NCBI GenBank assembly: GCA_022579005.1
Contig: MU401457.1
Span: forward strand, 186,001-250,000
Direction: 5' to 3'
From: Poronia punctata
Lineage: Eukaryota; Ascomycota; Sordariomycetes; Xylariales; Xylariaceae
Length of the DNA: 64,000 nt
The position numbers were made by a program, and so were the translations under genes. Every line of letters starts with the position of its first letter. The stretch's first letter is position 1. Below, piece by piece: positions 7,301-60,465 of this stretch. The notes beneath the pieces are model-generated. The model searched no databases, was not told where the DNA came from, and worked only from the letters and a program-made list of their open reading frames with translations.

Positions 7301-7649
7301 ATTTAATTTATTAGATTTATTAAGCTATAAACACATTGCTAATAAACTAATTATAATTTACTAAGTTAAAATAAAGTCTTTTTTTTAATCCTTATATAAT
7401 TTCGTTTTTGTTTATTTTTTTATTTAATATTTTAACTTATATAAGTTAAGTTAATAAAAATAATATAATTAGCTTATTTTTTAAATATAAAAGATTTAAA
7501 TACTTAAAGCTTAAGTTAAAAGGTAGTTGCTTTATAATATTGTTTATTGCTTTTAATAAAAAGCTATTAAAGTATGTAGATTTTAATCTTTTTACTTATA
7601 TAGCAAAGCTTTTTATTAATTAAAGTAATTATATTAGTTTTATAATTTA

Positions 7650-17207: not shown

Positions 17208-18467
17208 TTAATGCTCGTCTGCATTTGGACTGTAAGCCCGTCGTGCCCTGCCTCCTGTGATGCGGGCGCGACGCAGGAATCCGGACACGCTTGTGACGGG
17301 GACGAGAGTTGTGGGACGTGCGGTGGGGGTAACGGTAACAGTTTCAGTTTCAGTTGCAGAGGCAGAGGCAGATTCGGTGGTAGAGTCGGGACCGCCTACA
17401 ACGATGGTAGTATATTGAACAATAGTCTCGGCGGGAGCAGTAACTGTGACGGTCTTGATACGTCCGTGACTCTGACTCTGACTGTGCGTTGTAGATGTAG
17501 CCGTAGACGTCATGACCGGAACAGGAACAGATGAAGATGAAGCAGTCGTGGGATCAGGACCAGGATCAGGATAACCCGTAGGATCGACGACAAGACCAGT
17601 CGGTGCAGGTGGGCTATTGGTCCCGATACCCAGGGCTGTCGCTTCAATCAGGTTGTTCAATTGAGAAGAGATACCGGCGCTCAAGATATTGTCGTTACCA
17701 GAAAGCTTGATTGACGGCAAGGCATTTCCCAAGTCGGCGTTTGCGTTTGCGGGTTTGGTGAGATCGATCTGGGCACAGGTACTGTAGATCTCGGTGACGT
17801 TGGAGGAATCGTCAATGATGCGAGGCCAGTCCCAGACCCACATGAGGGTATAGGTTCCCTCGCTGGGAAGATCTGCGGGGAGCTGGATATCGGTTTGGCA
17901 GAATAGTTCGTCGACGCCGTATTTGGCCTTGCGCTCTTGGGCGATGGGGTTGCCGGGGTTGTTTTGGAAACACTGCCCGTCGTCAAAGTAATGAGTTGCT
18001 AGAAGTCTGCCTTTTTTATTGCCACCTTTACCATCGGCGGTCCAGGCGTTGAGGACGTCATTGATGCCGTCGGAATCCTTATGCTGCATGGTGCCATAGA
18101 CGTAGACATTGCCGCCGCGGAAAGGTCGAAGAGTCTGTTCAGGCTGCGTCACATGGCCGTTTTCCTGATACTGCAGGGCAATGTAATCGCCCGCGGCACC
18201 CTTTAGGGGAGGATACTGAGTGGTGTCACTTGAGGATAACGGCTTGCAAACGGCCGGGTTGTCCGACTTGTCCAAGATCTTGTTCTGGTGCAGGTCGTCT
18301 GGGACACCTTGGCCTCTGGGGATGTAACCAATCGGGTAACCTGGTTTGCCCGTGAAAGAACCGGTCGGGCCAATTTGGTATAAATATTCCACCCAAGTAT
18401 GGGCATGGACGATTGGCGTAACCGCGAGGAGGGCGATGACCGCCTGGCACAGACGCCTGAGATACAT
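17208..18467 (-). CDS. Secreted LPMO-like protein with N-terminal histidine (DUF7492-like) and Ser/Thr-rich tail
   Basis: Single-exon product of 419 residues. The frame is open further upstream, but the ATG at 18,467 is chosen because it gives a clear signal peptide (residues 1-22, ending VHA) followed by HTWVEYLYQIG. Cleavage would expose His23 as the mature N-terminus, as in copper 'histidine-brace' lytic polysaccharide monooxygenases. Internal features include THYFDDGQCFQNN and LMWVWDWP, typical as I recall of the fungal DUF7492-like family. After about residue 290 the protein becomes Ser/Thr/Pro-rich with short TVTVT-type repeats, likely an O-glycosylated tail or wall linker. Secretion is well supported; oxidative polysaccharide cleavage is inference. 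Confidence 0.8.
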   Translation of the reverse strand: MYLRRLCQAVIALLAVTPIVHAHTWVEYLYQIGPTGSFTGKPGYPIGYIPRGQGVPDDLHQNKILDKSDNPAVCKPLSSSDTTQYPPLKGAAGDYIALQYQENGHVTQPEQTLRPFRGGNVYVYGTMQHKDSDGINDVLNAWTADGKGGNKKGRLLATHYFDDGQCFQNNPGNPIAQERKAKYGVDELFCQTDIQLPADLPSEGTYTLMWVWDWPRIIDDSSNVTEIYSTCAQIDLTKPANANADLGNALPSIKLSGNDNILSAGISSQLNNLIEATALGIGTNSPPAPTGLVVDPTGYPDPGPDPTTASSSSVPVPVMTSTATSTTHSQSQSHGRIKTVTVTAPAETIVQYTTIVVGGPDSTTESASASATETETVTVTPTARPTTLVPVTSVSGFLRRARITGGRARRAYSPNADEH

Positions 18468-20247
18468 GACTGTGTTTGAGGATGCTGGGATTTTTTTAAG
18501 GTCCTGCCAGCAAGACCGCAAATGAGAAAGTGAAAGGGGATTATCCCGCGCAAGGTCAAGTAACCCTGAATAGTGAAGTCTTTGAACAAATCGGCGACTA
18601 TGCAGGGGAAGGAATGTGAAGTTGCAGCTGTGCGGCTGATTGAACAAATAGACCAAAGGGTTTGCGGCGGCTTTGCACAAAAGGTGGGATGAACAATAGA
18701 GTATAAAAAGCCGTGGTAGGAAAAACCGATAGTGTAAGTGTTAAATGGGATGAAGTGTAATAAGTAAACACAGGAGACGCGCGGCGTCAAAAAGTCAGGC
18801 CTGCTGAAATTATGTGTAGAATTGAATTGACAAAAAGAGAAAAAGAGAGGTGGTGTTTATACTTTTAAACCAGCATAGCAAAAGGTACAAACAATATAAC
18901 TGTCTTGACTGAGAAGGATAGAAAAAAGACTTTGTTATGCTACGTGCTTCGTGTGTGTTATAAGGCGACGACCCGAGGACAATGGGGTACCTTGTCCGGA
19001 TGGTGGGGCTGAAAGAAGGTGTAAGTAAGTACTCCTCTAGCGTCAATGAGTTGTGTAGGGCTTGTGTGTTTGAGCAAAGGTACATGAGGTGTGGGCGACT
19101 GTATCTGCATTCATGTATGTATATGTGAACTATGTGCAAACATAGGTAGACAAGCAAAAGAGCATCTGCTAGATCCAAGATGCCAAGAACATGTGCTGCG
19201 AGGGGAGGACGGGAAAAGGATAGCTAGCTTACCTAACCTAGACACTTGATGATTATTAACAGTCTGTATGCCGCCCTGTTGGCGCTTGGCTATGGATCCT
19301 GAACTTCAATGATGGAGGGTAAAGGATTGAGGTCTCTAAAGTGAGCCGACTCCTTATTAATATGAATACTGCTTTGCTTGTCTCAAAGCCCAAGCCACCC
19401 TGACACATCATGGAATCACAAGGATACTTCCAAATCTATTCCCTGGTAGAAAGTAGTGGCGCAAATTTAGACGCCTTGGGACCCAGCCAAAGGTCAAATT
19501 CTGGCCCTGCTTCTTAGCACCAACATCCAAAAGATATGGGATTCTCAACAAGCGCGCCTGAAGTTGCGGGTCTTGTTTCTATAAGTAATTTACACGATCC
19601 CTTATGAGTAATCATCTGTCTTGCCAAGGATGGTGTGGGGAATTCTAGATTTTTGTTTTGAGAATATTCTCAAGAAGGGCTTCCATAGGTATGGTAGGTC
19701 AAAAGCTTCCTTGGGCTTGTTAGGTTTGTTTGAGAACAGTAGTGTATAGACCAGTCATCTTCCAGTCTTTCGGGTTGTGTCTGTAGACCAAGTGGTGTTG
19801 TAAAGGCTGTGGTCTGTTGTTCTTGAGTTTAAAGGTACATTGGTACACCAAAGGCGTGAATGTGAAGAAGTTGTGGCTTCGCACTTGCCCAAATCTCGCC
19901 CTATCTGTAGGTTCTATTGGTTAACAAGAGCCGAACATGCAACGGCTTGCAAGGTTGATCAGGGGCTCCCCGCGGGTAGCTAATTTAGCAGACATGGCCT
20001 ATGCTAGTAGGTACATCCGTTACTAATATCGGTACTTACCACTTGCGCTTAAAGCCATTGTCATGTAGACTCCTACCATGTTTGGCAACAGAGGTACCTG
20101 TTTTCCTTTAGCACTCCACTAAATCTGCACCACCTTTGGTCTCTAAGTACCCCTGTATCTTTTCAATGTCACACCAACAACCCCACATTTATCCGCTCTC
20201 TTGGTGTTTTCTTCTCTCCTAACCATTCCTTATCCTATTGCATTGTT
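18468..20247. other. Intergenic, no supported gene
   Basis: The first ~300 bp are the promoter and leader of the minus-strand gene; the rest has normal composition without convincing open frames, up to the second AT-rich block. Confidence 0.5.
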
Positions 20248-20344
20248 TAGCTTAGTCTACAGGCCTGCAGGGCCCTACTTACAACCCTACCTTTTATACT
20301 ACACTTTTTGTACACATTTTGCAGCGCTAGTAGGTTAAAATTAA
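20248..20344 (+). repeat. 97-bp direct repeat, left copy
   Basis: Starts TAGCTTAGTCTACAGG and ends GTTAAAATTA. It matches 26,069-26,165, where nearly every difference is C to T or G to A. Possible short terminal repeat of block B; no flanking target duplication was found. Confidence 0.7.
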
Positions 20345-23300
20345 TTTAAAAGCAATACGTCGACGTAACAATATTATATTGCATTTTAAATTATTATTTC
20401 TTTAGGTCTACTTACTTTTTTTAATAGCTTTATTACTTATTATAATAGCTGCTGCAAAATTTGCAAAAAGTAAATAGCTTGTAAAAAATTTGCATAAAAA
20501 TATTAACTTTACCTAGCAAATTAAAAGCTAACTAAGCTAAAAAGCCTAAACTAAGCTATTATAGCTTATAAATAATAATGTTTTTATAAGCAATTTTTAG
20601 CTATTAGTTATTTTAAGCTTAGTTAAACTACTAGCTTAGCTTAAAGTGCTTAATATACTAATAAAGCGCATAATAGCTAACTTAGCTAAGGCCTTAGCTT
20701 AAGTAAATAAAAACTTAAAGCGCTATAAATAACTAGTTTGCACTTGCTGCTTTAAGCGCTTTAAGTAACTTAAAGCTAAAAAAGCGTAGTTAGTAATGCT
20801 AACCTATACTTTAAGTGCGTTGTAGGCCTAAAACTAACTTAGCTTTAACTAGTTACTTAATAAGATTTATAAGTACTTTTTTATTATTATTATAATTATA
20901 AAAAAGTTTTTTAGTGTTAATTTTAAGTATATTTAAAGCATTTACTAAAATAAACTTAATATAGCTAACTTAATTAAGCTTTAAGTTAAAGCGCATAACG
21001 TACTTTTAACGTTTTAACTATATACTAACTAGCAAACAAGCATAGTTATAATAGTTGCTTTAATAGCAAAACTTAAAGCTTATAGTATAAATATTAACAT
21101 TTAAGTATATTGCTTTATAACTTACGTAGCAATATATGCTTGCTTTTTTATAAAGTATTTTAAAGTTATTTAAGTAATAAATAACTTTAGCTAACGTATT
21201 TTTAAGCTATTAATAATATATAAACTTTAAGCTATTATTATATTTATAATAATATAAATAAAGTTTATTAACGCAAGCTTTTATAATATAAATCTTTAAG
21301 CTAAATAAAATGCTAGTTAAAAGTAATAGTTTTTTTTGCTATATATATTAAAACAGTTATTTTAATTAAGTACTACTTTTAATAGCTTATTATTAAGCTG
21401 CAATACTTATATTTAATAAAATAAAAGTAAATATAACCTAATAAAAACATGCTACTGCTGCTTTTATATTTATAGCTATTGTAAGTTTAGGTTATATAAA
21501 GCCTTTGCTTGCTTTAAAAAAAATTAAAATAACGTAGCTAAAAACTAACTACTTTTTAGCTAACTTTTAAGTATTAATAACTTAAAACTAAGGCCGCTTT
21601 TAATTTAAAAGCGCTTTTTTTAAAAAAACTAAAGCATTATAAGCTAAATTAGCAAGCTACGCTTTATACTAGCTTAACTAACGCATAATATAACCTTTTT
21701 TTTTTTTATATTTAACTTAAAAGGCTTTTTATTAATTAACTCCCTTTTGCTTTTAAACGTATATATTTAAAAGCTTGGCTTTTTTTAGTACTTTAGCAAC
21801 TTAAAACTAATAGTAAGCAAAATTTTGCGTTTTAAAGCTTTGCTTAGCTTAGCATTGTTTTTAAAACTAGTTTAGTTAAAAAACTTTTATTTTATAAACA
21901 ATAACTATATAGTTATTAAGCAGCAAATTGTTATAAACCTAGCTTTTAAAAAAATTATAAAAGTTTTATTTTATATAAAGCTTTTAATTTTACTACTTAG
22001 CTTAGTTTTTAAGTTTAATAAAAGCTATTAGCATATATACTACCTTTTTTACTTTAATAAATAATTAGTTAACAACTATATTTTAGCTAAATATAGCATA
22101 TTAAAGTATATTATAATTATAAACATTTTTAACTTAGTTTAATAAGCTAGCTGTAAAATATATTTTATTAAAAAAAATTTAAAAAACGCTTTTTAGCTTA
22201 TACTAATTACGTTGCTATAACGTTAGCTGCTTGCCTTTTAATAAAAAAAACGTTTTTATACTAAAAACTGCTTGCCTTTTAAGCTCTATTTAGCCCCTTT
22301 TTTATTTAACCTTTTTATAAAAAGCTTTTATTAAATATTATAAACCTTGCTACTTTAGCTTAGTATTATATATTATTTTAACAACTTTATTTTTGTTATT
22401 TTAAAGTTAATAGCGCGCTATGCGCTTAAAGTATATAATATATACTTTTTTTTTGCCTAGGCCTTTAGCCTTTTTTTTAATAATAAAAAAAACGTTAAAA
22501 GTACTTATATTAAAATACTTAGCATTATAATTAATTTTATATTAATAACTGCGCTCTTATTAAACGCAAAGCTTTAAAAAGCAAACTGCTTAATATCTTT
22601 TGCTTTATTACAACTTTTAATTATAAAAAACAAGCTTAAGTTTTTAATAAGCTACTTTTTTTTTTGCTTATTAATTATACTTATTAAAAAAGCTTTTTTA
22701 GTTAACTTATAGTAGTTATTATAACTTTTTTAAAGCTATTAGCTATACGCCTTGCTTTTAATAGCATAAGTAAACTTTAAATAGTAAAAAAACTTAATTA
22801 AAACGTTTAATAAGTTTTTTGTGCTTTTAATAAACAATTACCTAACGTTTTACTTATTTATTAACGCTTTAAGCTATAGTTTAAATAGCTTTTAGTACTA
22901 AGCTAGCTTAGCATAATTAAACTAGCATGCAGCCTTGCTAATAAGTTTATAATAAGCATACTAGCGTTATTAAAATAGCTTTAAAATAGCTACATATATA
23001 AATATAGCTAAAATTAATATAATTATAATTACTTTTACTTTATAGCATATAATTTAGTAGTTAAGCACTATAATTATTTATATTAATAATATAATAGCTT
23101 AAGCTAGCATTGCTAACGCTTTAACATAAAACTTGCTTTTTTTAGCTTTACTTTATAAAGTGCTAGTAATAGTAGCAATATTAAATATTTTATTATATAT
23201 TTATTACGTTTTTTTAGCTAACAATAGCTTAGTAAACGCTTTTTTACAGTTTAATACCTAGACGTTAACTAACTTATATTTTACTTAGTAGCTTTTTTTA

Positions 23301-25803
23301 AAAAGTATTTTTTTAAGCGCTTTTTTAAGCGCATAGCAAGCTTAATAATAAACTTAAACTATATTTGTTTGCTTTAAGCTAGTATAGCAAAGTTTACTTA
23401 GTAAAAGTATAAATTAGCAGTAAGCTAATTTAAACAATAGTATAGCTTTTATAGCTTTTAGCTTTAGCTTGCTTAAAAAAAAGTTTTTGCTTACTATATT
23501 TTTAACTATGCTTATAAATAGTTAATAACTTATATTTAAAAGTTAATACTTTTATTTTACTTATTTAAATTATAAGCAATTTATATTAACTTAATACTTA
23601 ATTTAACAGTTTTTAATAGCTTATATATTTACTATTTAGCGCAAAAAGCAACGTACTTTTTTTTTTACTTTATACGTAGCAAAAAAAAGCAGCTAATCTT
23701 AGCTTAGCTATTAGCATAACTATTATTTATATAAGCTTACATAAGTAAAAACTTAAAAAATATTTATATTGCTAACGTAGCGTTTTTGCTAGCTTAGTAT
23801 AGCTTTTTACGCTTTAGCAAAGTTATTTGCTTTAACTGTAATGCTTTAAATGCTTACTGTTTTATAAAACTTAGCTTAATATAAAAGTATATTAACTTTT
23901 TACTTTAAGCTAATTATTTTTATGTTTTTTTTTGCACTTTAAAAACAAATTATAATTAAAATAGCGTAAGCATTACAATTTGCATAACTAAGCTAGCAGC
24001 TTACTTAGTTAAGCATATAAAAACCTTACTTAGTTAAACTTTGTTTTTAACTTATATTGCTAGCTTTTTGCTTTTTTTTTAGCTTAAAGCTAGCGCGTTT
24101 TTATACTAAAAAGCTTTAGCTATTTTAGCTAAATACCTAGCTAACTTTAGTATTTTATTAAAAACTTATGCTAAATATAGCTTTTATAAAAAAGCAGCAT
24201 AGTATGCTTATAATATAAGCTTAATAAGCGCTAAAATAAAACTACTTAGTAAGTAGTTATTAAACGCGTTTAAATGCTACTATAAAGCATTGCTTTTAAA
24301 TTTTTTTAAGCTTTAAAGCAAGTTTACTATAAGCTTTAATACTTAATAGTTAATATAGTTTACTTATAATATTATATACTTTATTTTATTTAAATAATTA
24401 GATTTTTTTATAAGTTATAAATAAAGCGCTACTAGCTTATAGTAGTTATATATATTAAAATATATTTTATATTTTAAGCAAATAATAAGTTTAGCAACTT
24501 AAAATTTTTATAAGGTATAAGTAATATAATAGCAACTTACTACTAACTTGCAAAAACTATTTTTTAGCTTTTTTTTTTTTATTTTTAACTTTTATTAACT
24601 TTTTACTTTAAGCAGCAGCTTTAGCTTTGCGCGCTTTTTTTTTTTGCTTATAAGCGTTTTTAACCCTTTTTTAAAAGGCTTTTAAAAAATGTTAGTTTTT
24701 ATAATATGTTAGCAGCTTATAGCTAAATTGCTAAAAAAGCACTTATAGCTTATTTTATAAAAAGCAAGTTTTTATTTTAAACTATTTAAAAGTTAAATAG
24801 TTTTATATGCTATAAACTATATATTAAACTTTTTTTAAACATTGTAGCATTTAATAAAAAGCTGCTAAAGCGTTAGTATAGCAATAATATATTATATTTT
24901 TTTAACTTTACTTATAATATAATAGCTATTATTTTTACGTTTTTTATAAAACTTAATATATTAAGTATACTTATTAGTTTTTAAAGCATAGTTTATAGCA
25001 TAAAAGTTGTTATAATTTTATAAGCTATTAGTAGCGCGCTATAATATTAGCGCTGCCTTGTAAAAATTTAATTTTTACTTACTTAAGTAATAAAATTAAA
25101 GCAATTTTTATAAAGCGTATTTTACTTTTTAAAAAATAATAAGTTTTAGTTTATATTTTGTTAAAAGCTTGTTGCTAAGTTATAAAAATAGCGTTTTTAT
25201 TTATTATTATATTTAAAGTGCTTAAGATTTATAAGCGTTAAGGCCGTTTTTTTTGCTTTAAGCATACTAGTTAAAACATTGCTTTTATAAAGCGTTAACA
25301 ACGCTTTGCTAACTTGCGCTTTAATAACTTTTAAAAAACTTACTTTAGTATAATTTAATAATAAAAAGCAAAAAAAATAAAACTAGGCTAGCTTTAGCTT
25401 TAGCTACTTAAAGCGCTAAAGCATTGCTAAAAGCTTGCTATTATATTATAAAAAAGGTAAAAAAACTTACTTTAAAAAAAAGTAATATAAAAAAAAAAAG
25501 AAAAAAAGGTTAAGTAACCTAAAAAGAAAGCTTTTTTTTATACTTATTTTTTGCTAACCTTTATTATTTTTTTAAATAGTACGCTGTTGTTAGCGCTTGC
25601 TAATATTATATTGCTTTTTGCTGCTAGGCTTTAGCTACTTTTATTTTAAAAATAGCAACTGTTTATTATAAAACCTATACTTTTTTTACTTTAATTTAAA
25701 ACTTGCTTATACTTTATACTTTTTACTATTTTTAAAAGTTAATAACTTTATACTAATATATTTTACTAAAAATTTAACTTAAATATAATTAAAGTATAAG
25801 TAT

Positions 25804-26071
25804 AAGTAGCTACTAGCTAGCTAGCAATTTGCTTGCATATTATAATTTTTACTTAGCTATAGCTATATTAATTAAGCTTAATAAAAGCTTTGCTATTAAT
25901 ATAGCTACGCAACGCTAACTTATAAAATACTAGCTAAGCTTACTAATAAGACTTTATTTTATTAAGCTTATTACGTACCTTTTTTGCTAGCTAGCTATAA
26001 AGCTTATGCTTTTTTAATATATATACTAATTAACTTTATAAAATATATGCTTATAAGTATGCTATAAATAG
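25804..26071 (+). repeat. 268-bp direct repeat, mutated copy
   Basis: Matches 26,325-26,592 at an offset of 521 bp, with C/T and G/A differences. It runs directly into the mutated 97-bp repeat at 26,069, so the two repeats are parts of one larger unit. Confidence 0.75.
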
Positions 26072-26165
26072 CTTAGTTTATAAACTTATAAAGCCTTACT
26101 TATAACCTTACTTTTTATACTATATTTTTTATATATATTTTATAGCGCTAGTAAGTTAAAATTAA
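26069..26165 (+). repeat. 97-bp direct repeat, right (mutated) copy
   Basis: RIP-mutated partner of 20,248-20,344, directly following the mutated 268-bp repeat. Confidence 0.7.
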
Positions 26166-26324
26166 CCTGCTTACTATTTTTATTTTAACTAGCTAGCGCT
26201 ATATATTATTAAAAAAAGAAAAAAAAAAGGTTTTTAAAAATAAAAAAAGCTTAAATAAGCTAGGATAGCTATACATTTTTATTTTTTAGTTTTTTGTTTT
26301 AAGTTTTTTTTTGTTTTTTTAGCT

Positions 26325-26592
26325 AAGCAGCTGCTAGCTAGCTAGCAATCTGCTTGCATATTGCAATTTTTACTTAGCTGCAGCTATATTAATTAAGCTT
26401 AATAAAAGCTTTGCTATTAATATAGCTGCGCAACGCCGACTTGCAAAATGCTAGCTAGGCCTACTAATAAGACCTTATTTTATTAGGCCTGCTATACACC
26501 TTTCTTGCTAGCTAGCCGCAAAGCTCACGCTCTCCTAATATACGTACTAATTAACCCTACAAAATGTGTGCCTGCAAGTGTGCTGTAGATGG
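26325..26592 (+). repeat. 268-bp direct repeat, nearly unmutated copy
   Basis: Right edge of block B, with normal C and G content, and therefore the best surviving view of the repeat. It begins AAGCAGCTGCTAGC and ends GTGCTGTAGATGG, after which unique sequence starts. An 80-codon frame from 26,564 straddles this boundary and is not supported as a gene. Confidence 0.75.
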
Positions 26593-27837: not shown

Positions 27838-28820
27838 TCAAGGCACAGCCTTCCACTTCTCCGCCCACTCCTTCACCCTCTCAACATCTCTACATCTCCT
27901 AGCCGATCCGAAACCTTTGACGCCACCGAGGTCAAAGTCGATTGGTTCGAGGTTGGTGTCCGCGTGGCACAGGAGCGATTGCCGGAGATAATCGATGCAG
28001 TGGCGGATATGTGAGGGTGTCTCATGGTGGTGATGATCATGTCGTGTCGCTTGGCCGACATGCCAATACGCATGACGAAGACCGTCCTTGAAAGTTCATG
28101 TCTTGTTAGATTAGGTATGTACCTAGATGGTGTGATACAATATTTACAATAGGTAGATGGGAATTGTGGCAGCCACTCACTAGACAGTGGAGTTGGTGGT
28201 AGATGGATAATCCCATCGGCACGGGTGCGATGTCGGGGTGTTGGATAAAACCGTTGCCTTCTACTCCAACAATGGCCCCCCTCCCCCAAATTAACATTAG
28301 TTCCTCAAAATTGTGGGATGAAAAACAACAGCATATGTAAGGTAGGTAAAATCATCGAGGTAGGTACAAACAAACAAACACACGAACCGGGAAATAGTGC
28401 TTTCCAGTAAGAGTCAGACTCATTCCCGGGCTCTACGGTGAAGTGTTTCTGGTAGGTGAATTCGGTATCTATGTTTCCCGGAGGGGCTGCGTGTTTGGGC
28501 AATTAGCTTCAAGAATCTCCAGGGGGAGCCGTTGTAGGTAAAGTAAGTAAGTAAGTAATTAGGTTAGGTCAAAGCTCACGAAACCAGTTGGAAGAAAGGG
28601 TAGAGCGCTCTACATGGCGACCGAGAAAGAAGAATGAGACGGCCACGACGAGCATGGGGGCCGTAGCTAGAAGAATTCGGAGCCCGGCACTCCATAGTCT
28701 TGGTCTCTCCGAGGATGAGGATGAGGTTGACCGATAATTTTGAGGGATCGCACCCTCGATGTCTTCCTTTATTTCCGTGTCCTGGAGAGGTTCATAGTGT
28801 TTGCTTTGTGTTGTACCCAT
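27838..28820 (-). CDS. UstYa-family (DUF3328) oxidase 1 of the RiPP locus
   Basis: Four exons on the minus strand: 28820-28580, 28486-28384, 28280-28181, 28086-27838, coding for 230 residues. A cytoplasmic N-terminus is followed by one membrane helix (about 45-67) and a lumenal domain. It carries both family motifs, HQLHC (143-147) and HIRHC (174-178), plus the usual HCIDYLRQ and late CRD signatures. UstYa-type proteins install oxidative macrocyclic crosslinks in dikaritin RiPPs (ustiloxin, phomopsin, asperipin) and act in other fungal pathways. It is transcribed divergently from the precursor gene, 617 bp apart. Exon 2 ends at a GTGTGT donor, the weakest junction; the other sites are good and the frame closes throughout. 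The substrate is inferred from its neighbour. Confidence 0.88.
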
Positions 28821-29437
28821 TTTATGTGTTTGGCTTGGCTCTCTCGAGGAGTCGAGGGTCTGAAGAAAAAGGGATTGGAAAGAGGCAAAAAAAAAAAAAA
28901 AAAAAGAAACCCACGGACAATTTTACGCTCATGGTTTCCTCTAGGTACCTACGTATGAGACTCCTATCTAAGAGGGGATTATCAACCATACGCCAGACCT
29001 CGGGCTGGTTCTTTAGGTGGATACCAACCGTCCGCATGACATCGAGGATACTAGGTGGTTTTGTAGGTTCGGTATAGATTTCTCAGGTGATCTTCGACGA
29101 TCTCCCCAAAGTGTTGTAATGGATGCAACGTGCTCCAAGTACGTATGCTGCAAGTATGTGTGTAGATAGTAGGTAGGCATATGTGTACATATACGGATCC
29201 GAACTGCCGCTTTTAGTTAGTATTACAAGTTACAATACCTACCATGAAGCAAACAAAGAAACATTTATGATGATATATATTTTACGACGATATAAAGACG
29301 CGCATTAAGCCTGACAATTCCCCAAAGTCCACATTATCCTTTCTCCTTTTACATTTCTACTACCAATCCCTAACCATTGCCCACATAGTCGTTCTCCAAC
29401 TTTGACTTGGCCAACTTCTCCAGCAGAAACTCCTAAA
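28821..29437. promoter_or_regulatory. Divergent promoter of UstYa-type gene 1 and the precursor gene
   Basis: A 617-bp shared upstream region. It contains an A-run at about 28,889-28,908, a CGG-AT-CCG palindrome at 29,194-29,201 (the type of inverted CGG half-site bound by Zn2Cys6 regulators), and an ATATAAAG box near 29,290, about 150 bp before the precursor ATG. Function is inferred from position only. Confidence 0.45.
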
Positions 29438-29748
29438 ATGAAGAACGGCTCCTTCCTTTTTGCCGCGCTCTTCGCCTATCAGGCCTTGGGTGCTGCTATT
29501 CCCGCCCAGAATGGTGAGTGCTTCCCTTTTTCCGCGGCTCAGCAGGACGACGACGGGCTCACCAGAACAAAGGTTTGAAAGTGAGCGCCAGAGCGGACAG
29601 CACCATTGCATCTAGCGATGACGAGGCCGTGGTATATAAGTGGGATGGTGACACGTCCAGGAAGCGTGTGACTACTACTACTACCAGGGCAGACAGTACC
29701 ATGACTGATAGCGATGACGAGGCCGTGGTGTATAAGTGGGAGGGTTGA
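29438..29748 (+). CDS. Putative dikaritin-type RiPP precursor peptide with repeated VVYKW core
   Basis: Two exons, 29438-29513 and 29573-29748, give 83 residues. The first 19-20 residues form a signal peptide (MKNGSFLFAALFAYQALGA). The mature part has two near-identical 20-residue units (32-51 and 64-83) of the form RADST..SDDEAVVYKW(D/E)G, separated by DTSRKR and a run of Thr. SRKR is a good Kex2 processing site. Signal peptide, acidic spacers, Kex2 site and repeated aromatic core, placed between two UstYa-type genes, match the plan of UstA-like precursors, although those usually carry more repeats. The likely core lies within AVVYKW. The intron is 59 nt with a GTGAGT donor and a less common AAG acceptor; a CAG 30 nt earlier also keeps the frame but leaves an implausibly short intron. 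Identification as a RiPP precursor is inference from architecture and context. Confidence 0.78.
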
Positions 29749-29844
29749 GTCATGACACGTCTTAGGAAAACGTATGACCTGGGGCGGACAGTACCCATGG
29801 CTGACAGCGACGACGAGGTCAGGACATGGTCTTATGTTTGGTAG
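29749..29844 (+). pseudogene. Degenerate third precursor repeat after the stop codon
   Basis: Downstream of the TGA at 29,746-29,748 the DNA still resembles the repeat unit: a GACACGTC...CGT.TGAC linker, a GGACAGTACC...GACAGCGACGACGAG segment and a terminal TGG before TAG. In the same frame it would read ...ADSDDEVRTWSYVW and then stop at 29,842. It is either a decayed unit cut off by a nonsense mutation or a diverged unit outside the reading frame in use. Confidence 0.6.
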
Positions 29845-31226
29845 AGCTCAGATGCCCCCTTCTGCTTGAAGTGAGTGCCGGTTGCTTGGGGTTGCGGGTA
29901 TGTCACTGGGACCAAGAAAGGGGCACATATGACATAGCTACGTGTAGTATGTTGTTGTTTCTTGTGTATTTCTGGACTACCCATCATTCCTTCCTGATCT
30001 GGTGTGTGTGTTTTTCTTTGCTTAAGATAGGTAATCATGTCATCTCATGATTATCATCGACCAAAGTGAATACCCGTAACCTGACTTACGCATAATTACC
30101 ACATTAGTCGGTGCAACCTTGTTGATACAGAAGTAGATGGATCATGGACAAGCTGGCAATGCTACGCAGAGTAAGAGGTGGTCAAGCCTTTGGTAATGAG
30201 CATTAGTAAAAGACCTGCCAAGACGCCAGGCTACTACGGTATTACCTCACAGCGTTTCCTCTTAAATGCGTACCTCGGGATGTTGATGTTGAATTAAATA
30301 TTGGTCAAAAGGCAACGGTAAGTTAAGACTCAGGAAGTACGGTAAGTACCTAATTATATTACCCACTCTACCTACCTACTCCAAGGTGCAAGATGGGCCC
30401 CGCCACAGAATGCAACGCCAACTTACCTACTAAGTAGATAGTCCCATTCGATTAGGTACCACCTGCCGTAGGCGGGTAAGATATGACCAGGGGAATGCAA
30501 CATCCGCTTCCCGGCGACATACAAAACAGGGCCAGCTCCAAGTCTGAGGGAGCAATGGACTACGACTTCACACATGATGACATTAGCTTCGACCACCATC
30601 CAGTTGAGTTGATGTGACAAGACTTGGCAGTTGTCTTTTTTTCAGCTTTGACAGGTAATCCTTACCACCTGATTGATTTTCATGCGAGATGGTTCCATTG
30701 CCGACAATCGATCCGAAAATAAGATACCACTTCCAAGCTTGTAACTTTGTATTGGTTTTGGAGAACGACTCCAACCAAGGTAACATTGGGGGGAGGGGCA
30801 AAGTAGGTAAGTTACAAGTACTCTATGATGCCTAAACTGCAACGTCAGACACCCCTGGTATGCTGTTATTTATAGCTGTTAAGCCGTCACCAGGGCCTCA
30901 CTAGTCACTACTGCTTGGGAGGGATAGAAAAGGAAGGTTTAGAGCGTTGGACTTGCATTTATTTATTTAAAGGGGCTGTTACTTCCCTTACATCCCTGTA
31001 TCCAGGTTGCAACCCCCTTTGTTATCAGACCTAAACCTTATTCTGAAGGGTATTTAAAGATCTGTTTACATCTAGAGAGATACATAGAGAATACATCACC
31101 TTTAATCCCACTTTTGATTCCCCTGCAAGCTCATATCCTTTTCTACTACCTACTTACTTACTTGGCCGGGCCGGGCCGTAGTGTACCTAGTCGAGCCCTT
31201 TTACCGTCGCTCAGTGGTTGTTACCC
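29845..31226. other. Intergenic with retrotransposon LTR fragment
   Basis: No supported gene. Short minus-strand frames near 30,423-30,842 have no domains. The LTR fragment at 30,971-31,144 lies here, close to the 3' end of the second UstYa-type gene. Confidence 0.5.
30971..31144 (-). repeat. Solo LTR fragment related to copies A and C
   Basis: About 174 bp that in reverse complement matches the LTR from AGAAAAGGATATG through AAGGGAAGTAACAGCCC; homology then stops, so the LTR 3' part is missing. It has normal base composition, so it escaped RIP (short, single) or is more divergent. It is a footprint of the same family inside the RiPP locus. Confidence 0.75.
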
Positions 31227-32395
31227 TTAACCGTCACTACTCGCAGGGACGAGCAAGCTCCTGTCGGCCAAATCTATCCGGCGTGATCGTGCCCAGGTCG
31301 AGAGCTTGTCCCAATCCACGCATTGGTGTAGAGTACCCGGCTTCACAGTCGGGCCAATGACTTGTCCGTCAACATCTCTTAGCCATTCGAAAGGCCGGAC
31401 CGTGGTATCCCCGTGGCACATGGCGGCCTGTCGTAGTGTCTCCAAACAATGTGCTACGTATCATATATCAAGAACTTAGCTCTTTGCAATAACAAAAGCC
31501 CCTTTTCTTTCCTTCCTGACAAGAACGCCTCGGTAGAATCCAAAATAGATGCAACATACCAAGATGTCCGATTGTTTCATCGTGCTCGGCCCGCGTCTGG
31601 TTGGGATAAAAGTAATCCCGATACAGCCATTGTCGCAGTCGTTTCTATGGGCTCTAAGAGTTACTTGGTGACCCTCGTTGGTATTTGGATTTCCCGGACG
31701 AGAGGGTAGGTAGGTAGGTAACTCACGATGCAATGGAGTTCGTGATAGACTCCTAGCGATCCAACATATCCAGAGCCATCCTTTAATGCCAGCGACTTGA
31801 TGCCCAGCATCTCTACTTCTTCCGGGTAGATGATTAAATTAGACCCTGAAGAAATGGTCGCACAGATGTGTCAATATATGTCAGTTTGCGCTAGAAAGAC
31901 CATCAGAAGTCTTGCTTTCGCCCTGTATCCTCTCACCTCGGAGTAATGCGGCCCAAGCTGCCTCTATCGACGCATTCGGACGCCCGACAAACGCGCTCCC
32001 TGCGAATAAACCGTCCACAGTTCCGGACGCGTACTCTATGGCTTCGTTGGCCGGAGCTATATACGTATATCACCCCCAATTTAGCACTTACTCTCCCGGA
32101 CCTAGATTTGATTCCGTGTAGACTTACAATAGACGATTGGGTTGCACGATGACTCGCGCCGTTCGTTTACCTGCCCAAAGGTGAGGCCGAATATAATGGC
32201 ATATAAGACGAATACGGTACAGTGAGCCAGTGTGTAGAGTGATGGGGGGTATACGAAACGCCAGTAATTTGTTGAAGACGAGCCCGAGAGGTTTTGTGTA
32301 CGGGTCGTGTCTTCCTTTTCTAGTTCCTCTGGGCTGTGTAAGAGCGGGTAGTTATCCTCCTTATCGGAACTATGGAGGGAGGTTGGAGAAGACAT
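31227..32395 (-). CDS. UstYa-family (DUF3328) oxidase 2 of the RiPP locus
   Basis: Five exons on the minus strand: 32395-32128, 32056-31937, 31845-31727, 31644-31560, 31453-31227, coding for 272 residues. One membrane helix lies at about 53-74 (LYTLAHCTVFVLYAIIFGL). Then come the family segment AFVGRPNASIEAAWAALLR and both motifs, HELHC (164-168) and HLAHC (196-200), followed by LETLRQAAMC. The start at 32,395 is preferred over an in-frame ATG 48 bp upstream that would add a lysine-rich stretch from an A-run. It differs clearly from oxidase 1 in length and sequence, so the two are not a recent duplication. Paired, non-identical UstYa proteins are usual in dikaritin clusters, where both are needed for cyclisation. 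The peptide substrate is inferred. Confidence 0.88.
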
Positions 32396-33098: not shown

Positions 33099-34736
33099 AT
33101 GGCGGTCCCCGGGAGTACCAACATCATCATCATCAGCGTCGTTTTCACATCCCTTGCCGTCATCTTTGTGCTGTTGAGATTCCGTGCACGGATGAGGCAG
33201 AAGGCGCCGTATCTTGCTGATGACCATCTAATCGCAGTGGCAGCGGTAAGTTTTAATTGCATCCCAAAACTCAAAAACGGCTTTTTTTTTCTTTTTTTTT
33301 CTTTTTAAAGGAACGGAACCGGTTTAGTTAATTTTGTACGGGGGTGATAGGTATTCTGCGTGGCCTACATGGCGAATGTCATCGTCGGTCAGTCCTCTAG
33401 CAATTGCAAAACCCATAGCCAGATATGCCAACAATTTGTGGAAAAAGAATTGTCAATCACTGACAGTCAATGAAAATAATAATACAGCTGCTGTTGGGGG
33501 AAACCTGGGAAATCATATACCACTAGACGCGACAGGCGCCCCTCGATACGATGCAAAGAGCCTTCTCATCTTGAAAAAGGGAAGCCATCCATGATACCTA
33601 CCTTTTTTCCTCAGATACTTACCTTACCTTACTTATACTTGATGGGGGGGATTCCGAATAAATTATTTTGACTTATTATTAAGTACCTAACTACCTAACT
33701 AACAAATTCTGATCAGATCAGACCGTCTTCGCCTCCGAGGTCCTGGGATACCCTCCTCTGACATGCACCAAGCTCTCCATTCTCTTCTTCTACCGCCGAG
33801 TCTTCCTCGGCAAGAGATTCGCCCTCGTCACCCTGACCCTCCTCATTCTTTCTTCCGTCTGGGGTGTGGCGTTCTTCTTCGCGACGCTCTTCACCTGCTA
33901 CCCCGTTTCATATGCCTGGACGACGAACGAGGGCACGCCCGAGTTCGACGCTCACTGCTATAACCCCGTCCCCATGTTTTACGGTTCGGCCGTGTCCAAT
34001 ATGATAATGGATATCTTCATCTTGATTATCCCCGCGCCGATGGTCTGGAGACTAGTTCTACCGACCAGGCAGAAGATGGCTATTATAGGTATCTTCCTTT
34101 TGGGCGCATTGTAAGGATTTACCCTACCTACCTACCTACCTACCCTAAGCCCGACTTGGATATAGGGCTAGGTAGATGGATTGGATGCTGAATCTTGATC
34201 TCGCTAACTACTTACCCGTACGTTTTTTCCCGCAGCGTTGTCGGAATCACCGCCATCCGCGTCTCCGTATTCGTCGATACGGGATCCAATGATGACAGGG
34301 ACTATGATATAACCTGTGAGTTATCCTTGTCCTTGTCCTTGTCCTTGTCCCCAGAAACCATACAGTGAGGATGTTTGTTGCTAAAGACAACGATTATTAT
34401 ATACCTACAGATAATCTCGGGGGCGTCATATACTGGTCCCAGCTCGAGACCGCCATAGCGATCATCTGCGCATGTCTTCCCACCCTGCACATCATCCTTG
34501 TCGACTCACGTCTTACGAGGTTGTGTCGAGACGTGGTTAGCAAGATCTCTCTCCTCACGAGTAGTAGTAGTAGGAGGTCCCAGCAGTCGGAACCAAGTTA
34601 CTCGCTGCGTGGAAAGAAGAGTGCGTCGTCTATACCTGGGGGGATGGAAACTGGTGGCGGGATAAGGCTGGGAAGCAGCAACGAGACGCCCGAGATACCT
34701 CCTGTCCCCTCTCAGTATAGGTATACACTAAAATGA
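33099..34736 (+). CDS. Seven-helix fungal rhodopsin-domain membrane protein (PTH11-related type)
   Basis: Five exons: 33099-33245, 33351-33387, 33717-34110, 34236-34315, 34411-34736, coding for 327 residues. Seven hydrophobic helices are visible, from NIIIISVVFTSLAVIFVLL at the N-terminus to YWSQLETAIAIICACLP. Family landmarks include the TC.KLSILFFYRRVF segment and a short CHCYNP-like cysteine before helix 5. There is no N-terminal CFEM cysteine domain. The Ser-rich cytoplasmic tail is about 75 residues. These proteins are abundant in filamentous ascomycetes and often presumed G-protein-coupled sensors; the ligand is unknown. Intron 2 (33,388-33,716, 329 nt) is unusually long, and intron 4 starts with a TTGTCC hexamer repeat. 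Its location beside the RiPP genes may be coincidental. Confidence 0.85.
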
Positions 34737-35495
34737 AGTTACTTGTAGCTGGAAAAGGGGGTTGAATAGGTAAATGCGGAATCATGGCTAGTTAGGTAGG
34801 TAGTATACTTGCATTCTCTTTATTTTAGGTTACAGCATTAGGCAGATACATCGCTACCTACCTACATATGTAAAGGTCCTTGGTCCCCTGCCTGATCCGG
34901 TAATGGAGTGATCATACCATACCACACCTTGGAGTAGGTACGGTAACTCGTAGGATCTCACTGTCTGTTATCGAGCCCTCAACCCCTATTTCCCGGCCTT
35001 GTCGTAGCAACTGCTTTGATATGTGCTGCAAAGTAATTATTTGTTTACAGTCTCTTCCTACATAGGTAGAACCTTTACCTTGACATTAATTAATCAAGTT
35101 TACCTATTCTCATCTAATGCCTTAAGACACCTTTTTGACGGTATTACTATTGGAGAACCAAACAACCCCCCCCCCCCCCCCCACTACCTACATACATATA
35201 TATTCTGCATGTGTCGGATGCGGAAGGTGACTTTGGCTTTTGTAACATCATATGTGTGTATGTATGTATGTATGTATGTATGTATGTATGTACTGGAAGA
35301 AGCGTGCAGAACGCTGGTGTACACTTCGGTTTGAATCATTGATCTGCTGTTACCCCGACAGCAAGTTGCCCTACGCCTCTCCATCTCGGTGTTGCAACTT
35401 GCAAACCATTAAGAAACCTTGTGGGTTGGGTTGGGTGCGTTACGGTTATGGTCCCTCCCCGAGTCCAACGTGGAATTGATACCTAACCCACAAAT
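34737..35495. other. Intergenic with poly-C and GTAT microsatellite
   Basis: A run of 17 C at 35,166-35,182 and a (GTAT)n tract at about 35,250-35,291. No supported gene; open frames here arise from the simple repeats. Confidence 0.55.
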
Positions 35496-37652
35496 ATGGG
35501 AGATTTACCGCACGATTATCTGGAGCGGGTTTATGCCGGCGTTCTGGGAAAGCTCATCGGGGTATACCTAGGCCGACCATTCGAAGGATGGACACACCAA
35601 AAGATCATGGACAAGCTGGGTCCCATCCGATACTACGTCAATGAGAAATTGGGTGTTCCCCTGGTCGTGACGGATGACGATGTGTCCGGCACATTCACCT
35701 TTGTCAGGGCGATAGAAGAGCACGATGATGATGCCAAGAAGAAGGGGAGGAGCAGCAGCCTTCTTCCGGCTGAAAATATCGGCAAGACGTGGTTGAATAA
35801 TGTGGTATATCGCCGCTCCGTCTTCTTCTGGGGCGGGAAGGGTATCATGACGGAGCACACGGCCTACGTCAATCTGAAGAACGGCATGGCGGCGCCCCTC
35901 AGCGGCGCCACGGAGACCAATGGCGCGACCATTGCCGAACAGATCGGCGCTCAGATCTTCATAGACGGCTGGGCCTTGGTGGCTCCGGGCAATCCGCTGG
36001 TGGCAAGCAATCTCGCCGAAGCCGCGGCGTCCGTGAGCCACGATGGCAAGGCCGTTCATGCCGCCATGGTCTGGGCTGCGATGGAATCCGAGGCGTTCCT
36101 GTCCAAAGACATCGACCACCTACTAGTTACCGGTCTAGGGGTCATCCCCCCCGATTCCTTCATCGCCACGTTGATTAAAACCGTCCGTAGGTGGACCGGC
36201 GAGGATGGTAACTGGCTGATAACACGCCAGAGGATCGAAGATTCGTACGGATACGACAAGTTTCCCGGCATCTGTCATGTCGTGCCGAACCATGCCATCA
36301 TGATCATGGCGCTCATCTACGGCGGCCACGATTTCGCCGAGGCGATGCACATCGTCAACACCTGTGGCTGGGACACCGATAGCAATGCGGGAAACCTCGC
36401 ATGTCTCGTAGCCATCATGCACGGCCTGGCCGGGTTCGAAGGCAATTTAGACTGGCGTGGCCCCCTGGCCGATCGCGCCCTGATCTCCAGCGCCGATGGC
36501 GGATATTCCATCAATAACGCCGCGCGCCTGGCATTGGACATTGCGAACCTAGGCAGGAAGTTGGCAGGTGAGGAGACTCTCCCGCCTCCGAAGCACGGCG
36601 CACAGTTTCACTTCACGCTTCCCGGGAGCGTCCAAGGGTTCCAGGCGAGGACCGCCCCGGAGTCGGGCTCGGGCTCGTCCTCCATCTCGATTGCGCAAGG
36701 TATTGATCACACGAATAGTCCCGCACTGGCGATTCGTATCTCCGGTCTGGCCCGAACCATGGCTCCCGTTGAAGTCACCACTCCGACGTTTTCGGCGCCC
36801 GACGTTCGTTCCATGCCGCTTTACGACCTCGTAGCGTCGCCTCTCGTCTATCCCGGGCAGACCATCAAGGCGTTGTTACGGGCAGAACCCTCCAACACTG
36901 GTGCTGTCTCGGTGAGATTGGTGCTCAAGGCCTATTCATTTACCGACGAGCTCGAGTCTCACTTCGGAGACCATAGTTCTTTGAGCCCCGGGAGCTCAAT
37001 AGTTCTTGAATGGATCGTCCCATCCAGTATAGCCGGTCGCCCGATTCAATGCGTAGGTGTCACTCTATCCAGTCCCATGGACCGTCCGTTCAAAGGGACC
37101 GTGTGGCTGGACAGTCTCGGATGGCAAGGTACCCCCCATGTGATTCTCCGCGAAACCGGGAGCGAGGGGCCTCTAGACTTTTACAAGCGGGCATTCGTCA
37201 ACGCCGCCGACTCCTTCCACGTCTTTGGTGGTAAGTATTGGGTTGCCAAGGACGACGGCCAAGGTGTCGTCAGCTACGGTACCAAGGAATGGACCGACTA
37301 CAAGGTGAGATTCCGTGGATTCGCTATCAACATGGGCAATCCCGCCGGTGTTCTTGTGAGGGTCCAGGGGATCAACAGATACTATGCATTGGAATTCGCG
37401 AGCGGCGGACGCATTAGGTTCGTCAAGGCCCTTGACAATGAAAGAGTTGAGCTGGCTGCCGAGTATTTTTCCTGGGAGGTCGACGCTAGGTATACGATTA
37501 CTGTAAAAGTTGCGGGCGGCCAAATGTCTGCGCAGGTTGAGGATGTCACGTTGTTTGCTTGTGACCGTCAGTATCAAACCGGCGGTATTGGGCTCCTGGT
37601 AAACGACGGTTCCCTTTCTGTAAACACAATTGAAATAGGGCCTATTGATTGA
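35496..37652 (+). CDS. ADP-ribosylglycohydrolase-family protein with C-terminal beta-sandwich-like domain
   Basis: Single exon, 718 residues, no signal peptide. The N-terminal ~350 residues follow the ADP-ribosylglycohydrolase/DraG fold, with the two metal-binding signatures: TDDD (59-62, in VTDDDVSGTF) and NTCGWDTDSNAGN (about 288-300), plus GALIYGGHDF-like helices between them. Enzymes of this family remove ADP-ribose from proteins or small molecules, or have drifted to other hydrolase roles. A middle segment (about 370-540) is followed by a C-terminal region (about 550-718) with alternating strands (VRVQGINRYYALEFASGG), resembling a concanavalin/laminin-G-like domain, as in carbohydrate-active proteins. 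That fusion makes a glycoside- or glycan-related substrate conceivable. Family assignment is strong; substrate is unknown. Confidence 0.85.
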   Translation: MGDLPHDYLERVYAGVLGKLIGVYLGRPFEGWTHQKIMDKLGPIRYYVNEKLGVPLVVTDDDVSGTFTFVRAIEEHDDDAKKKGRSSSLLPAENIGKTWLNNVVYRRSVFFWGGKGIMTEHTAYVNLKNGMAAPLSGATETNGATIAEQIGAQIFIDGWALVAPGNPLVASNLAEAAASVSHDGKAVHAAMVWAAMESEAFLSKDIDHLLVTGLGVIPPDSFIATLIKTVRRWTGEDGNWLITRQRIEDSYGYDKFPGICHVVPNHAIMIMALIYGGHDFAEAMHIVNTCGWDTDSNAGNLACLVAIMHGLAGFEGNLDWRGPLADRALISSADGGYSINNAARLALDIANLGRKLAGEETLPPPKHGAQFHFTLPGSVQGFQARTAPESGSGSSSISIAQGIDHTNSPALAIRISGLARTMAPVEVTTPTFSAPDVRSMPLYDLVASPLVYPGQTIKALLRAEPSNTGAVSVRLVLKAYSFTDELESHFGDHSSLSPGSSIVLEWIVPSSIAGRPIQCVGVTLSSPMDRPFKGTVWLDSLGWQGTPHVILRETGSEGPLDFYKRAFVNAADSFHVFGGKYWVAKDDGQGVVSYGTKEWTDYKVRFRGFAINMGNPAGVLVRVQGINRYYALEFASGGRIRFVKALDNERVELAAEYFSWEVDARYTITVKVAGGQMSAQVEDVTLFACDRQYQTGGIGLLVNDGSLSVNTIEIGPID

Positions 37653-60300: not shown

Positions 60301-60465
60301 GTAATTTTAAAATTACTTAATAATAAGTTTTTAAGCTTTATATAAAAAGATTTTAAAAAAATAAACATTAAACAAAAGCTTTAAAAGTACTAGTATAATA
60401 TAAAAATCTTTAAAATCTAAGTTAATAACTTTATTATACTATTATAAAATAGCAAACTTAATAGT

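Follow-up and report, generated by a model that had tools for sequence, protein, structure and literature searches.

Dikaritin loci of fungi were first defined by a tyrosinase, methyltransferase, transporter or peptidase in addition to a precursor and a DUF3328 protein. Later definitions drop this requirement, and a DUF3328 (UstYa) protein with two HxxHC motifs has been proposed as the class-defining enzyme (PMC12048977). In the portion of PMC6514808 drawn on here, the ustiloxin B locus (ust) of Aspergillus flavus combines a signal-bearing precursor of 16 YAIG repeats, with ED and KR flanking the cores, with two UstYa-family oxidases, a tyrosinase, a methyltransferase, FMOs and a PLP enzyme; UstYa and UstYb are required for the first cyclic ustiloxin intermediate. 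The same portion describes a phomopsin locus (phom) with eight KR-flanked repeats of a Tyr-containing core, DUF3328 proteins, a tyrosinase and a product with a Tyr-Ile ether ring, and a small asperipin-2a locus (apr) of four genes, no tyrosinase being listed, with core FYYTGY, a reductase, a transporter and a single UstY enzyme that is proposed to close both Tyr-ether rings. For the DUF3328 enzyme CctR, two coppers are bound through the HxxHC pair, and members of the family are described as hydroxylating, halogenating and isomerising besides macrocyclising (PMC12435403, in the part relied on here). KEPs are defined by at least three tandem repeats, each of at least 8 aa, between KR, KK, RK or RR sites (Umemura 2020, PMC7329392). 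In 2020, 1758 DUF3328-associated repeat precursors were catalogued, with Tyr enriched in repeats that have DUF3328 neighbours (65.6% vs 38.2%), and several common KEP types are rich in D and Y, as is the precursor described below (PMC7329392).

Poronia punctata (Xylariaceae) is a dung-dwelling fungus. In the 64,000-nucleotide stretch of its DNA that was analysed (the window), a three-gene locus lies at 27838..32395, with a precursor gene on the plus strand between two UstYa genes on the minus strand, UstYaA to the left and UstYaB to the right. The limits given in the preliminary description are exact, as the left UstYa gene stops at 27838 and the right one begins at 32395. The reading frames are unbroken, and the splice sites are for the most part canonical. 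To the left, an AT-rich block (20000-26500) bears a strong RIP signature and ends some 1.3 kb short of the locus. The composite RIP index of the locus itself is 0.02, slightly above zero, whereas the gene parts on either side score -0.31 and -0.22. The best reading, to which we give a probability of about 0.78, is a minimal UstYa-type (dikaritin-like) RiPP locus, in which the units of a secreted precursor would be acted on by two copper oxidases. A compact locus of this type had been proposed from the start, and the proposal is supported by a two-unit precursor homologue in Xylaria arbuscula and by linkage of the UstYa pair in six more genomes.

The precursor gene (29438..29748, plus strand) encodes 83 aa in two exons, 29438-29513 and 29573-29748, with the ATG at 29438 and a stop codon ending at 29748. 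Its 59-nt intron (29514-29572) has a putative AAG acceptor. In-frame alternative acceptors exist at 29542, 29545 and 29593, and 29572 is preferred since the Arg ahead of unit 1 is then retained and the intron has an ordinary length. By hydropathy, the N-terminal segment is hydrophobic in both the Poronia and the Xylaria precursor, and it is a candidate secretion signal. Repeat and pattern searches place the conserved block SDDEAVVYKW, the candidate recognition sequence plus core, at 29614..29643 in unit 1 and at 29710..29739 in unit 2, where it is followed by EG and the stop codon. The underlying 62-nt repeats are 84% identical, and the best 62-nt self-match at the locus is 52/62, whereas 60 random 500-bp stretches from gene-rich parts reach 43 at most. 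In 45 Mb, the exact degenerate pattern for DDEAVVYxW has two matches, both of them at the locus (reversed control, 0). The direct-repeat family and the unit alignment also reveal a third, degenerate unit on the plus strand at about 29779..29819, past the stop codon and out of frame; it is either what is left of an earlier third repeat or a partial copy that is broken. A second intron that would rescue this unit was considered and rejected, as no in-frame continuation is visible by eye in the printed sequence.

That the precursor is a real gene is settled by its homologue in Xylaria arbuscula, F5Y08DRAFT_346659 (52% identity over 98%, E 1.4e-11). This protein has a similar signal region and carries SDDEAVVYAW twice. 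The two near-identical acidic units described at the outset are thus present, but the conserved block is better written SDDEAVVYxW, with the Lys variable (K in Poronia, A in Xylaria). Similarly, the possible Kex2-type site SRKR does lie between the units in Poronia (29656..29667, plus strand) but has no counterpart in Xylaria, where KR stands ahead of unit 1 and the stretch joining the units is free of dibasic sites; an Arg 7-8 positions ahead of SDDE is conserved instead. The Xylaria precursor and the closest UstYaA relative (F5Y08DRAFT_159559) are on contigs of equal size (27,530 bp), suggesting that the linkage of precursor and oxidase is conserved in this species. A homologous repeat precursor beside a UstYa gene is therefore found in a relative, as far as equal contig size indicates. 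The Xylaria locus is like that of Poronia in its homologous precursor and UstYaA, but differs in its YAW rather than YKW core and in the position of the closest UstYaB relative, which is on a different contig (175,574 bp).

The flanking genes, each encoding two HxxHC motifs, are both intact, with products of 222 and 272 aa. UstYaA, a UstYa/DUF3328 oxidase (27838..28820, minus strand; exons 28820-28580, 28486-28388, 28260-28181 and 28086-27838), carries HQLHC and HIRHC, and its last exon passes the curated cut-off for Pfam PF11807 (E 1.7e-15). The splice sites of this 222-aa model were corrected against 23 of 33 homologues. An earlier 230-aa model, with a GAG acceptor and exon 3 starting at 28280, was dropped because its 8 extra residues are missing in 23/23 aligned homologues. 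With that earlier model as query, the top match is from Xylaria arbuscula (E 5.6e-74). None of the 33 matches carries the name Poronia, and their best identity is 62%, thus UstYaA seems to be absent from the deposited gene set. Across 23 rows (the window plus 22 of the 33 matches), H135/H138/C139 and H166/H169/C170 are either invariant or conserved to 90% or more. UstYaB, also a UstYa/DUF3328 oxidase (31227..32395, minus strand; exons 32395-32128, 32056-31937, 31845-31727, 31644-31560 and 31453-31227), carries HELHC and HLAHC, and its 272-aa model is 100% identical to the deposited Poronia punctata GGS20DRAFT_597172. Its last exon matches PF11807 above the curated cut-off (E 4.8e-17), and two further exons match below it. 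H164/H167/C168 and H196/H199/C200 are invariant in 23/23 aligned rows (the window plus 22 of 27 matches). The predicted structure of UstYaB (mean pLDDT 72.9, pTM 0.56) has a membrane-type helix at 51-79, and two helices, 161-176 and 187-211, bear the HxxHC motifs. Among solved structures, neither family has a match (0 for each). The database labels "Oxidase ustYa" and "Cyclochlorotine biosynthesis protein O" on matches were not counted as evidence.

The oxidase pair is also found outside Poronia. When the 33 UstYaA and 27 UstYaB matches are compared, both fall on equal-sized contigs in six further genomes; in O1611, the two matches are tagged g2926 and g2928, with one number left between. Annulohypoxylon truncatum, Xylaria flabelliformis, X. 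cf. heliscus and Xylaria sp. FL1777 also have homologues of both oxidases. In a quick tree, the same species cluster with the window for UstYaA and for UstYaB (support 87 in the UstYaA set, 99 in the UstYaB set). Of 11 candidates scored in the precursor search, one proved to be a relative. The search took only proteins of about 46-145 aa that share exact words, and absence of the precursor elsewhere is therefore weak evidence.

Judged by the proposed class-defining enzyme, the locus has two such DUF3328 proteins, and the repeated core and recognition units typical of dikaritins are present, with two in Poronia and two in Xylaria. The original five-gene set is not: there is no tyrosinase near the locus (the closest match on the contig lies about 81 kb off) and no S41 peptidase (the two genome matches are on contigs C54 and C27), and Pfam scans of 20 selected ORFs detected no methyltransferase, transporter, FMO or PLP enzyme among them. 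The KEP rule does not cover it either, as there are two units, with one dibasic site between them in Poronia and none in Xylaria. In its signal-bearing repeat precursor, acidic motif by the core and two oxidases the locus resembles ust, but it does not share the many KR-flanked YAIG repeats. Of the accessory enzymes listed for ust, the tyrosinase has no match nearby, and the others do not show among the 20 ORFs scanned. It resembles phom in its repeated Tyr-containing core and DUF3328 proteins, the Tyr-Ile ether ring serving as a model for Tyr-x-Trp, but differs in repeat number and in the tyrosinase. It resembles apr in its small size, and apr likewise has no tyrosinase listed, but apr, as described, combines a single UstY enzyme with a reductase and a transporter. 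KEPs that adjoin DUF3328 genes, like the dikaritin clusters of Venturia inaequalis, share with the locus a secreted repeat precursor in such a setting (PMC7329392, PMC9632046, in the parts cited). In the same taxonomic order, Hypoxylaceae (Hypomontagnella, Hypoxylon rubiginosum and H. pulicicidum) have ustiloxin-like RiPP clusters, which are described as putative and similar to ust, but were detected through similarity to known precursors (PMC8403587, in the section cited). The UstYa matches include H. monticulosa and H. rubiginosum, which does not imply equivalence to those clusters. A cyclic pentapeptide of Biscogniauxia was considered as a relative and is unrelated, being cyclo-FLLLI in the excerpt of PMC12783183 cited. 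Of the six papers that match the strings VVYKW, AVVYAW, EAVVY, DDEAVVY and VVYAW, none deals with fungal peptides, to judge from titles and abstracts.

The claim that the core is new compared with known ones (among them that of phomopsin, presumably YVIPID) thus holds within that literature, supplements lying outside the search, and judging from its sequence the peptide looks new and its core undescribed. Repeat-precursor candidates are present near UstYa genes on 8 of 14 other UstYa-bearing contigs of the genome, compared with a repeat ORF in 1 of 6 control stretches, giving nine candidate precursor loci including the present one. Fungi commonly carry such gene sets. With about eight further candidates in this genome, nine such clusters reported in Venturia inaequalis (PMC9632046, in the part cited) and the 1758 precursors already listed, a new core is to be expected and is no surprise.

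If expressed, the precursor would enter the secretory pathway through its N-terminal signal, and its units would be modified by the two UstYa-family copper oxidases, anchored in the membrane of the secretory organelles and directed towards the lumen. The acidic SDDEA is most likely the recognition sequence, and VVY-x-W would carry the modified residues. The likeliest chemistry is an oxidative side-chain cross-link from Tyr to the residue two places on (Tyr-x-Trp; compare Tyr-x-Ile in phomopsin). Proteases may then cleave at basic residues ahead of each unit and trim the ends. As predicted from the genes, the product is very probably a modified peptide, and by analogy with the described systems it is probably ring-shaped and Tyr-cross-linked. 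A more specific proposal is possible but doubtful: that UstYaA and UstYaB join Tyr to the Trp two residues on, with x free, as a Tyr-Trp analogue of the ustiloxin and phomopsin rings, and that the precursor represents a low-copy class which is processed at a conserved Arg instead of KR and which screens based on repeat number overlook by their own rule.

The ring is not certain, since DUF3328 enzymes also hydroxylate or halogenate. The family's range of chemistry, isomerisation included (PMC12435403, same part), and other UstYa-neighbouring repeats in the genome that have no Tyr, such as the core SGDAVPWNAVGSEKR on contig C350, would suit a UstYa-type RiPP locus whose oxidases tailor the peptide without closing a ring, leaving a linear modified product. 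This is unlikely, given the Tyr enrichment in repeats beside DUF3328 genes. The conserved Tyr and the conserved residue at i+2 also match, in position, what we take to be the Tyr-x-Ile pattern of the cyclic members. It is rather more improbable that the UstYa pair serves another, unlinked substrate, the present precursor being one of several peptides modified. The pair is present in more genomes than the precursor, and the Poronia genome has eight other precursor candidates, but those candidates have their own UstYa neighbours, and the precursor search was limited in protein size and to shared exact words.

Several observations count against a minimal RiPP locus: the broken third unit, which could mean that the locus is decaying; the presence of two units only; the Xylaria units without a dibasic site between them; the lack of a nearby tyrosinase or S41 peptidase; the closest UstYaB relative of Xylaria arbuscula, which sits on another contig; the RIP index of the locus, slightly above zero; and the single precursor relative, though the oxidase pair is more widespread. 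The low unit number and the broken unit, together with deposited Poronia entries that do not include the precursor, the RIP-marked block nearby and the locus RIP index, could also be explained by an accidental neighbourhood, in which the small gene is a pseudogene, or its product is secreted, as a peptide or an effector, and has nothing to do with the oxidases. This is very unlikely, as the two-unit layout and SDDEAVVYxW are kept in Xylaria beside a UstYaA homologue (on equal-sized contigs), the frames are unbroken and the splice sites largely canonical.

If the minimal RiPP reading is true, the locus would extend by one core sequence the short list of UstYa-type peptides whose products are known, and would provide a three-gene system small enough to test the chemistry of two copper oxidases without a tyrosinase. 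It would also mean that two-unit precursors exist, which are skipped by the published KEP rule of at least three repeats. By its looks, the Poronia punctata genome, with nine candidate precursor loci including the present one, is a good source of such peptides.

Window positions 27838-32395 hold two minus-strand UstYa/DUF3328 oxidase genes, UstYaA on the left and UstYaB on the right, with a small plus-strand precursor peptide gene in between. The UstYaB protein (272 aa) is 100% identical to the deposited Poronia punctata GGS20DRAFT_597172. UstYaA (27838-28820) has a product of 222 aa with one intron corrected by homology; none of its 33 database matches is identical or Poronia-named, and the gene seems absent from the deposited annotation. 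Its last intron ends in AAG, which may be why gene prediction missed it. In both genes the final exon matches Pfam UstYa (PF11807) above cut-off, and two further UstYaB exons match below it. Each protein carries the HxxHC motif twice. The UstYaB motifs show no variation in an alignment of 23 rows (the window and 22 of 27 matches, without P0020, P0023, P0027 and P0028; P0002 is the window's own protein). Those of UstYaA, also across 23 rows (the window and 22 of 33 matches, excluding P0044, which has an insert and was in an earlier alignment), are either invariant or conserved to at least 90%. The predicted UstYaB structure (mean pLDDT 72.9, pTM 0.56) has a long N-terminal membrane-type helix (51-79), with the HxxHC motifs on helices 161-176 and 187-211, an arrangement that agrees with that described for the copper enzyme CctR in the available text of PMC12435403.

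The precursor gene opens with a secretion-type start of 25 codons, followed by a 59-nt intron (29514-29572) and then by two units carrying SDDEAVVYKW; its protein has 83 aa. The intron ends in AAG, a plausible acceptor because UstYaA intron 3 has the same ending and its join agrees with homologues; with alternative acceptors the linker alone would differ. With 52 of 62 nt identical, the repeat lies far outside the chance range: among 60 random 500-bp stretches from gene-rich parts, the best value was 43. The pattern DDEAVVYxW occurs in two places in 45 Mb, both in the precursor, and a whole-precursor search of the genome matches its own two exons only. A third unit is recognisable at about 29779-29819, past the stop codon and out of frame; an array of three units has probably been reduced to two.

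A homologous precursor was sought among 5.8 billion protein sequences (11 candidates scored, lengths about 46-145 aa only, E up to 10). The sole match (E 1.4e-11) is a Xylaria arbuscula protein of 78 aa, which has a signal region resembling that of Poronia and carries SDDEAVVYAW twice. Its contig is 27,530 bp long, and the best UstYaA match (54% identity) is also from X. arbuscula, on a contig of exactly 27,530 bp; therefore the two genes almost certainly share one contig. In the X. arbuscula assembly the closest UstYaB lies on a different contig (175,574 bp), either because the assembly is broken there or because the genes are truly separate. SDDEAVVY-x-W is constant across the four units of the two species; at x, Poronia has K and Xylaria has A. 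Thus, of the VVYKW-type core proposed in the preliminary description, VVY and Trp hold in all four units but the Lys does not, and the proposed Kex2-like SRKR site is present in Poronia but missing from the Xylaria precursor. All four units have an Arg 7-8 positions ahead of SDDE (contexts SAR, TTR, KR and PR), although that of Poronia unit 1 hinges on the splice acceptor chosen.

Judged by contigs identical in bp, UstYaA matches (33 compared) are linked to UstYaB matches (27 compared) in six more genomes: O1611, Xylaria sp. FL1777, X. flabelliformis, X. cf. heliscus, Annulohypoxylon truncatum and Hypoxylon sp. CI-4A. The O1611 tags, g2926 and g2928, leave one number in between. A quick tree was built from 47 rows (both window proteins, 23 of 33 UstYaA and 22 of 27 UstYaB matches), and the two families are well apart in it. 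Poronia, X. arbuscula and O1611 group together in both families (support 87, with Nemania, in UstYaA; support 99 in UstYaB), a pattern that would be expected of a pair inherited as one unit; the long branches of which the tree program warned (P0018 and P0058) lie elsewhere. The O1611 proteins (P0004, P0031) are labelled Lasiodiplodia mahajangana, a Botryosphaeriales genus, yet group with Xylaria and Poronia, pointing to either a mislabelled genome or transfer.

For ustiloxin, phomopsin and asperipin, the available part of PMC6514808 describes a peptide that enters the ER, repeated cores that are modified by UstYa-type oxidases, and core release by Kex2-type and other proteases; ustiloxin cores are flanked by ED and KR, and the phomopsin ring is a Tyr-Ile ether. 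By analogy, the present precursor would enter the ER, the UstYa-type oxidases would act on its cores, and Kex2-type and other proteases would free them, with the acidic SDDEA as a possible recognition part. The conserved Trp lies at i+2 from the conserved Tyr, with the variable residue between. The phomopsin ring residues have the same spacing (i and i+2), and a Tyr-x-Trp ring is therefore the simplest specific prediction; alternatively, the product may have a Tyr-Val link, another oxidation, or no ring. On the contig, tyrosinase has its nearest match about 81 kb off, so that chemistry dependent on a linked tyrosinase is unlikely. S41 peptidase has no match anywhere on the contig, and the ends would thus be trimmed by other proteases.

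To the right of the locus are a membrane protein of the fungal rhodopsin type (33713-34733) and a long ADP-ribosylglycohydrolase-domain protein (35487-37649, 721-aa frame), with no evident biosynthetic role. A DUF7492 protein (510-aa open frame, E 1.7e-78) is found at 17211-18740. AT-rich blocks (1500-7500, 20000-26500 and 54500-64000; 14-23% GC, strong composite RIP indices of 1.10 to 1.28) separate gene islands of 47-49% GC, and the block left of the locus has a strong RIP signature (1.28). The index of the locus is 0.02, just above zero, versus -0.31 and -0.22 in gene-rich parts; the locus thus shows no strong RIP damage but may carry a trace.

PF11807 has 27 exon matches on 15 contigs of the Poronia assembly, including that of the window. 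On the other 14, about 9-17.5 kb around the matches (16 stretches) were screened for open frames with repeated words. Repeat ORFs were found in 9 of 16 stretches, versus 1 of 6 (L051) in a small control of 71 kb (four other contigs and two gene-rich parts of the window); thus, an association of secreted repeats with UstYa genes is visible within the genome. L035 on contig C81 was set aside, since by eye it is a DNA repeat that lacks a start of secretion type. The remaining eight candidates, spread over 8 of the 14 contigs, are L037 (C5:246919-247599; DAAYREGAWGKR x11), L039 (C37:191686-192234; CNAPKCAKDTAYAIIKR x5), L044 (C29:14994-15314; QFVGTYVPAG x5), L045 (C44:132183-132836), L046 (C350:19173-19907; SGDAVPWNAVGSEKR x10), L047 (C117:88543-89262), L034 (C197:41626-41919) and L036 (C81:101172-101348; two copies only). 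By eye, seven have signal-like starts (that on C117 is not resolved); four of these starts lie in an upstream frame, and joining them would take an intron absent from the models. Their cores include AYREGAW, DTAYAII, QFVGTYVPAG, AVPWNAVG and IVPWKEG; some contain Trp and lack Tyr, in contrast to characterised Tyr-linked members. The closest paralogues of UstYaA and UstYaB are on C197 and C37, respectively, both with candidates, and the window locus is one of about nine candidate precursor loci in the genome.

Among the papers matching the core strings (supplements outside the search), none is on fungal peptides, and titles and abstracts of the Poronia punctata literature, and of the UstYa, DUF3328 and dikaritin literature among the matches listed, hold no report of the peptide. 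Ustiloxin-like RiPP clusters, which may or may not be the loci of the present UstYa matches there, are reported in Hypoxylaceae (PMC8403587). A survey of KEPs required at least three repeats (PMC7329392), a rule that would skip both the Poronia and Xylaria precursors as modelled. New cores are the rule in the UstYa-type family, with 1758 DUF3328-associated KEPs (PMC7329392), 94 Aspergillus candidates (available part of PMC6514808), nine Venturia inaequalis clusters (available part of PMC9632046) and about nine loci here, and for this reason the interest of the locus is modest. The core of the Poronia locus seems to be unreported, yet the locus is a further case of an established UstYa-type family.
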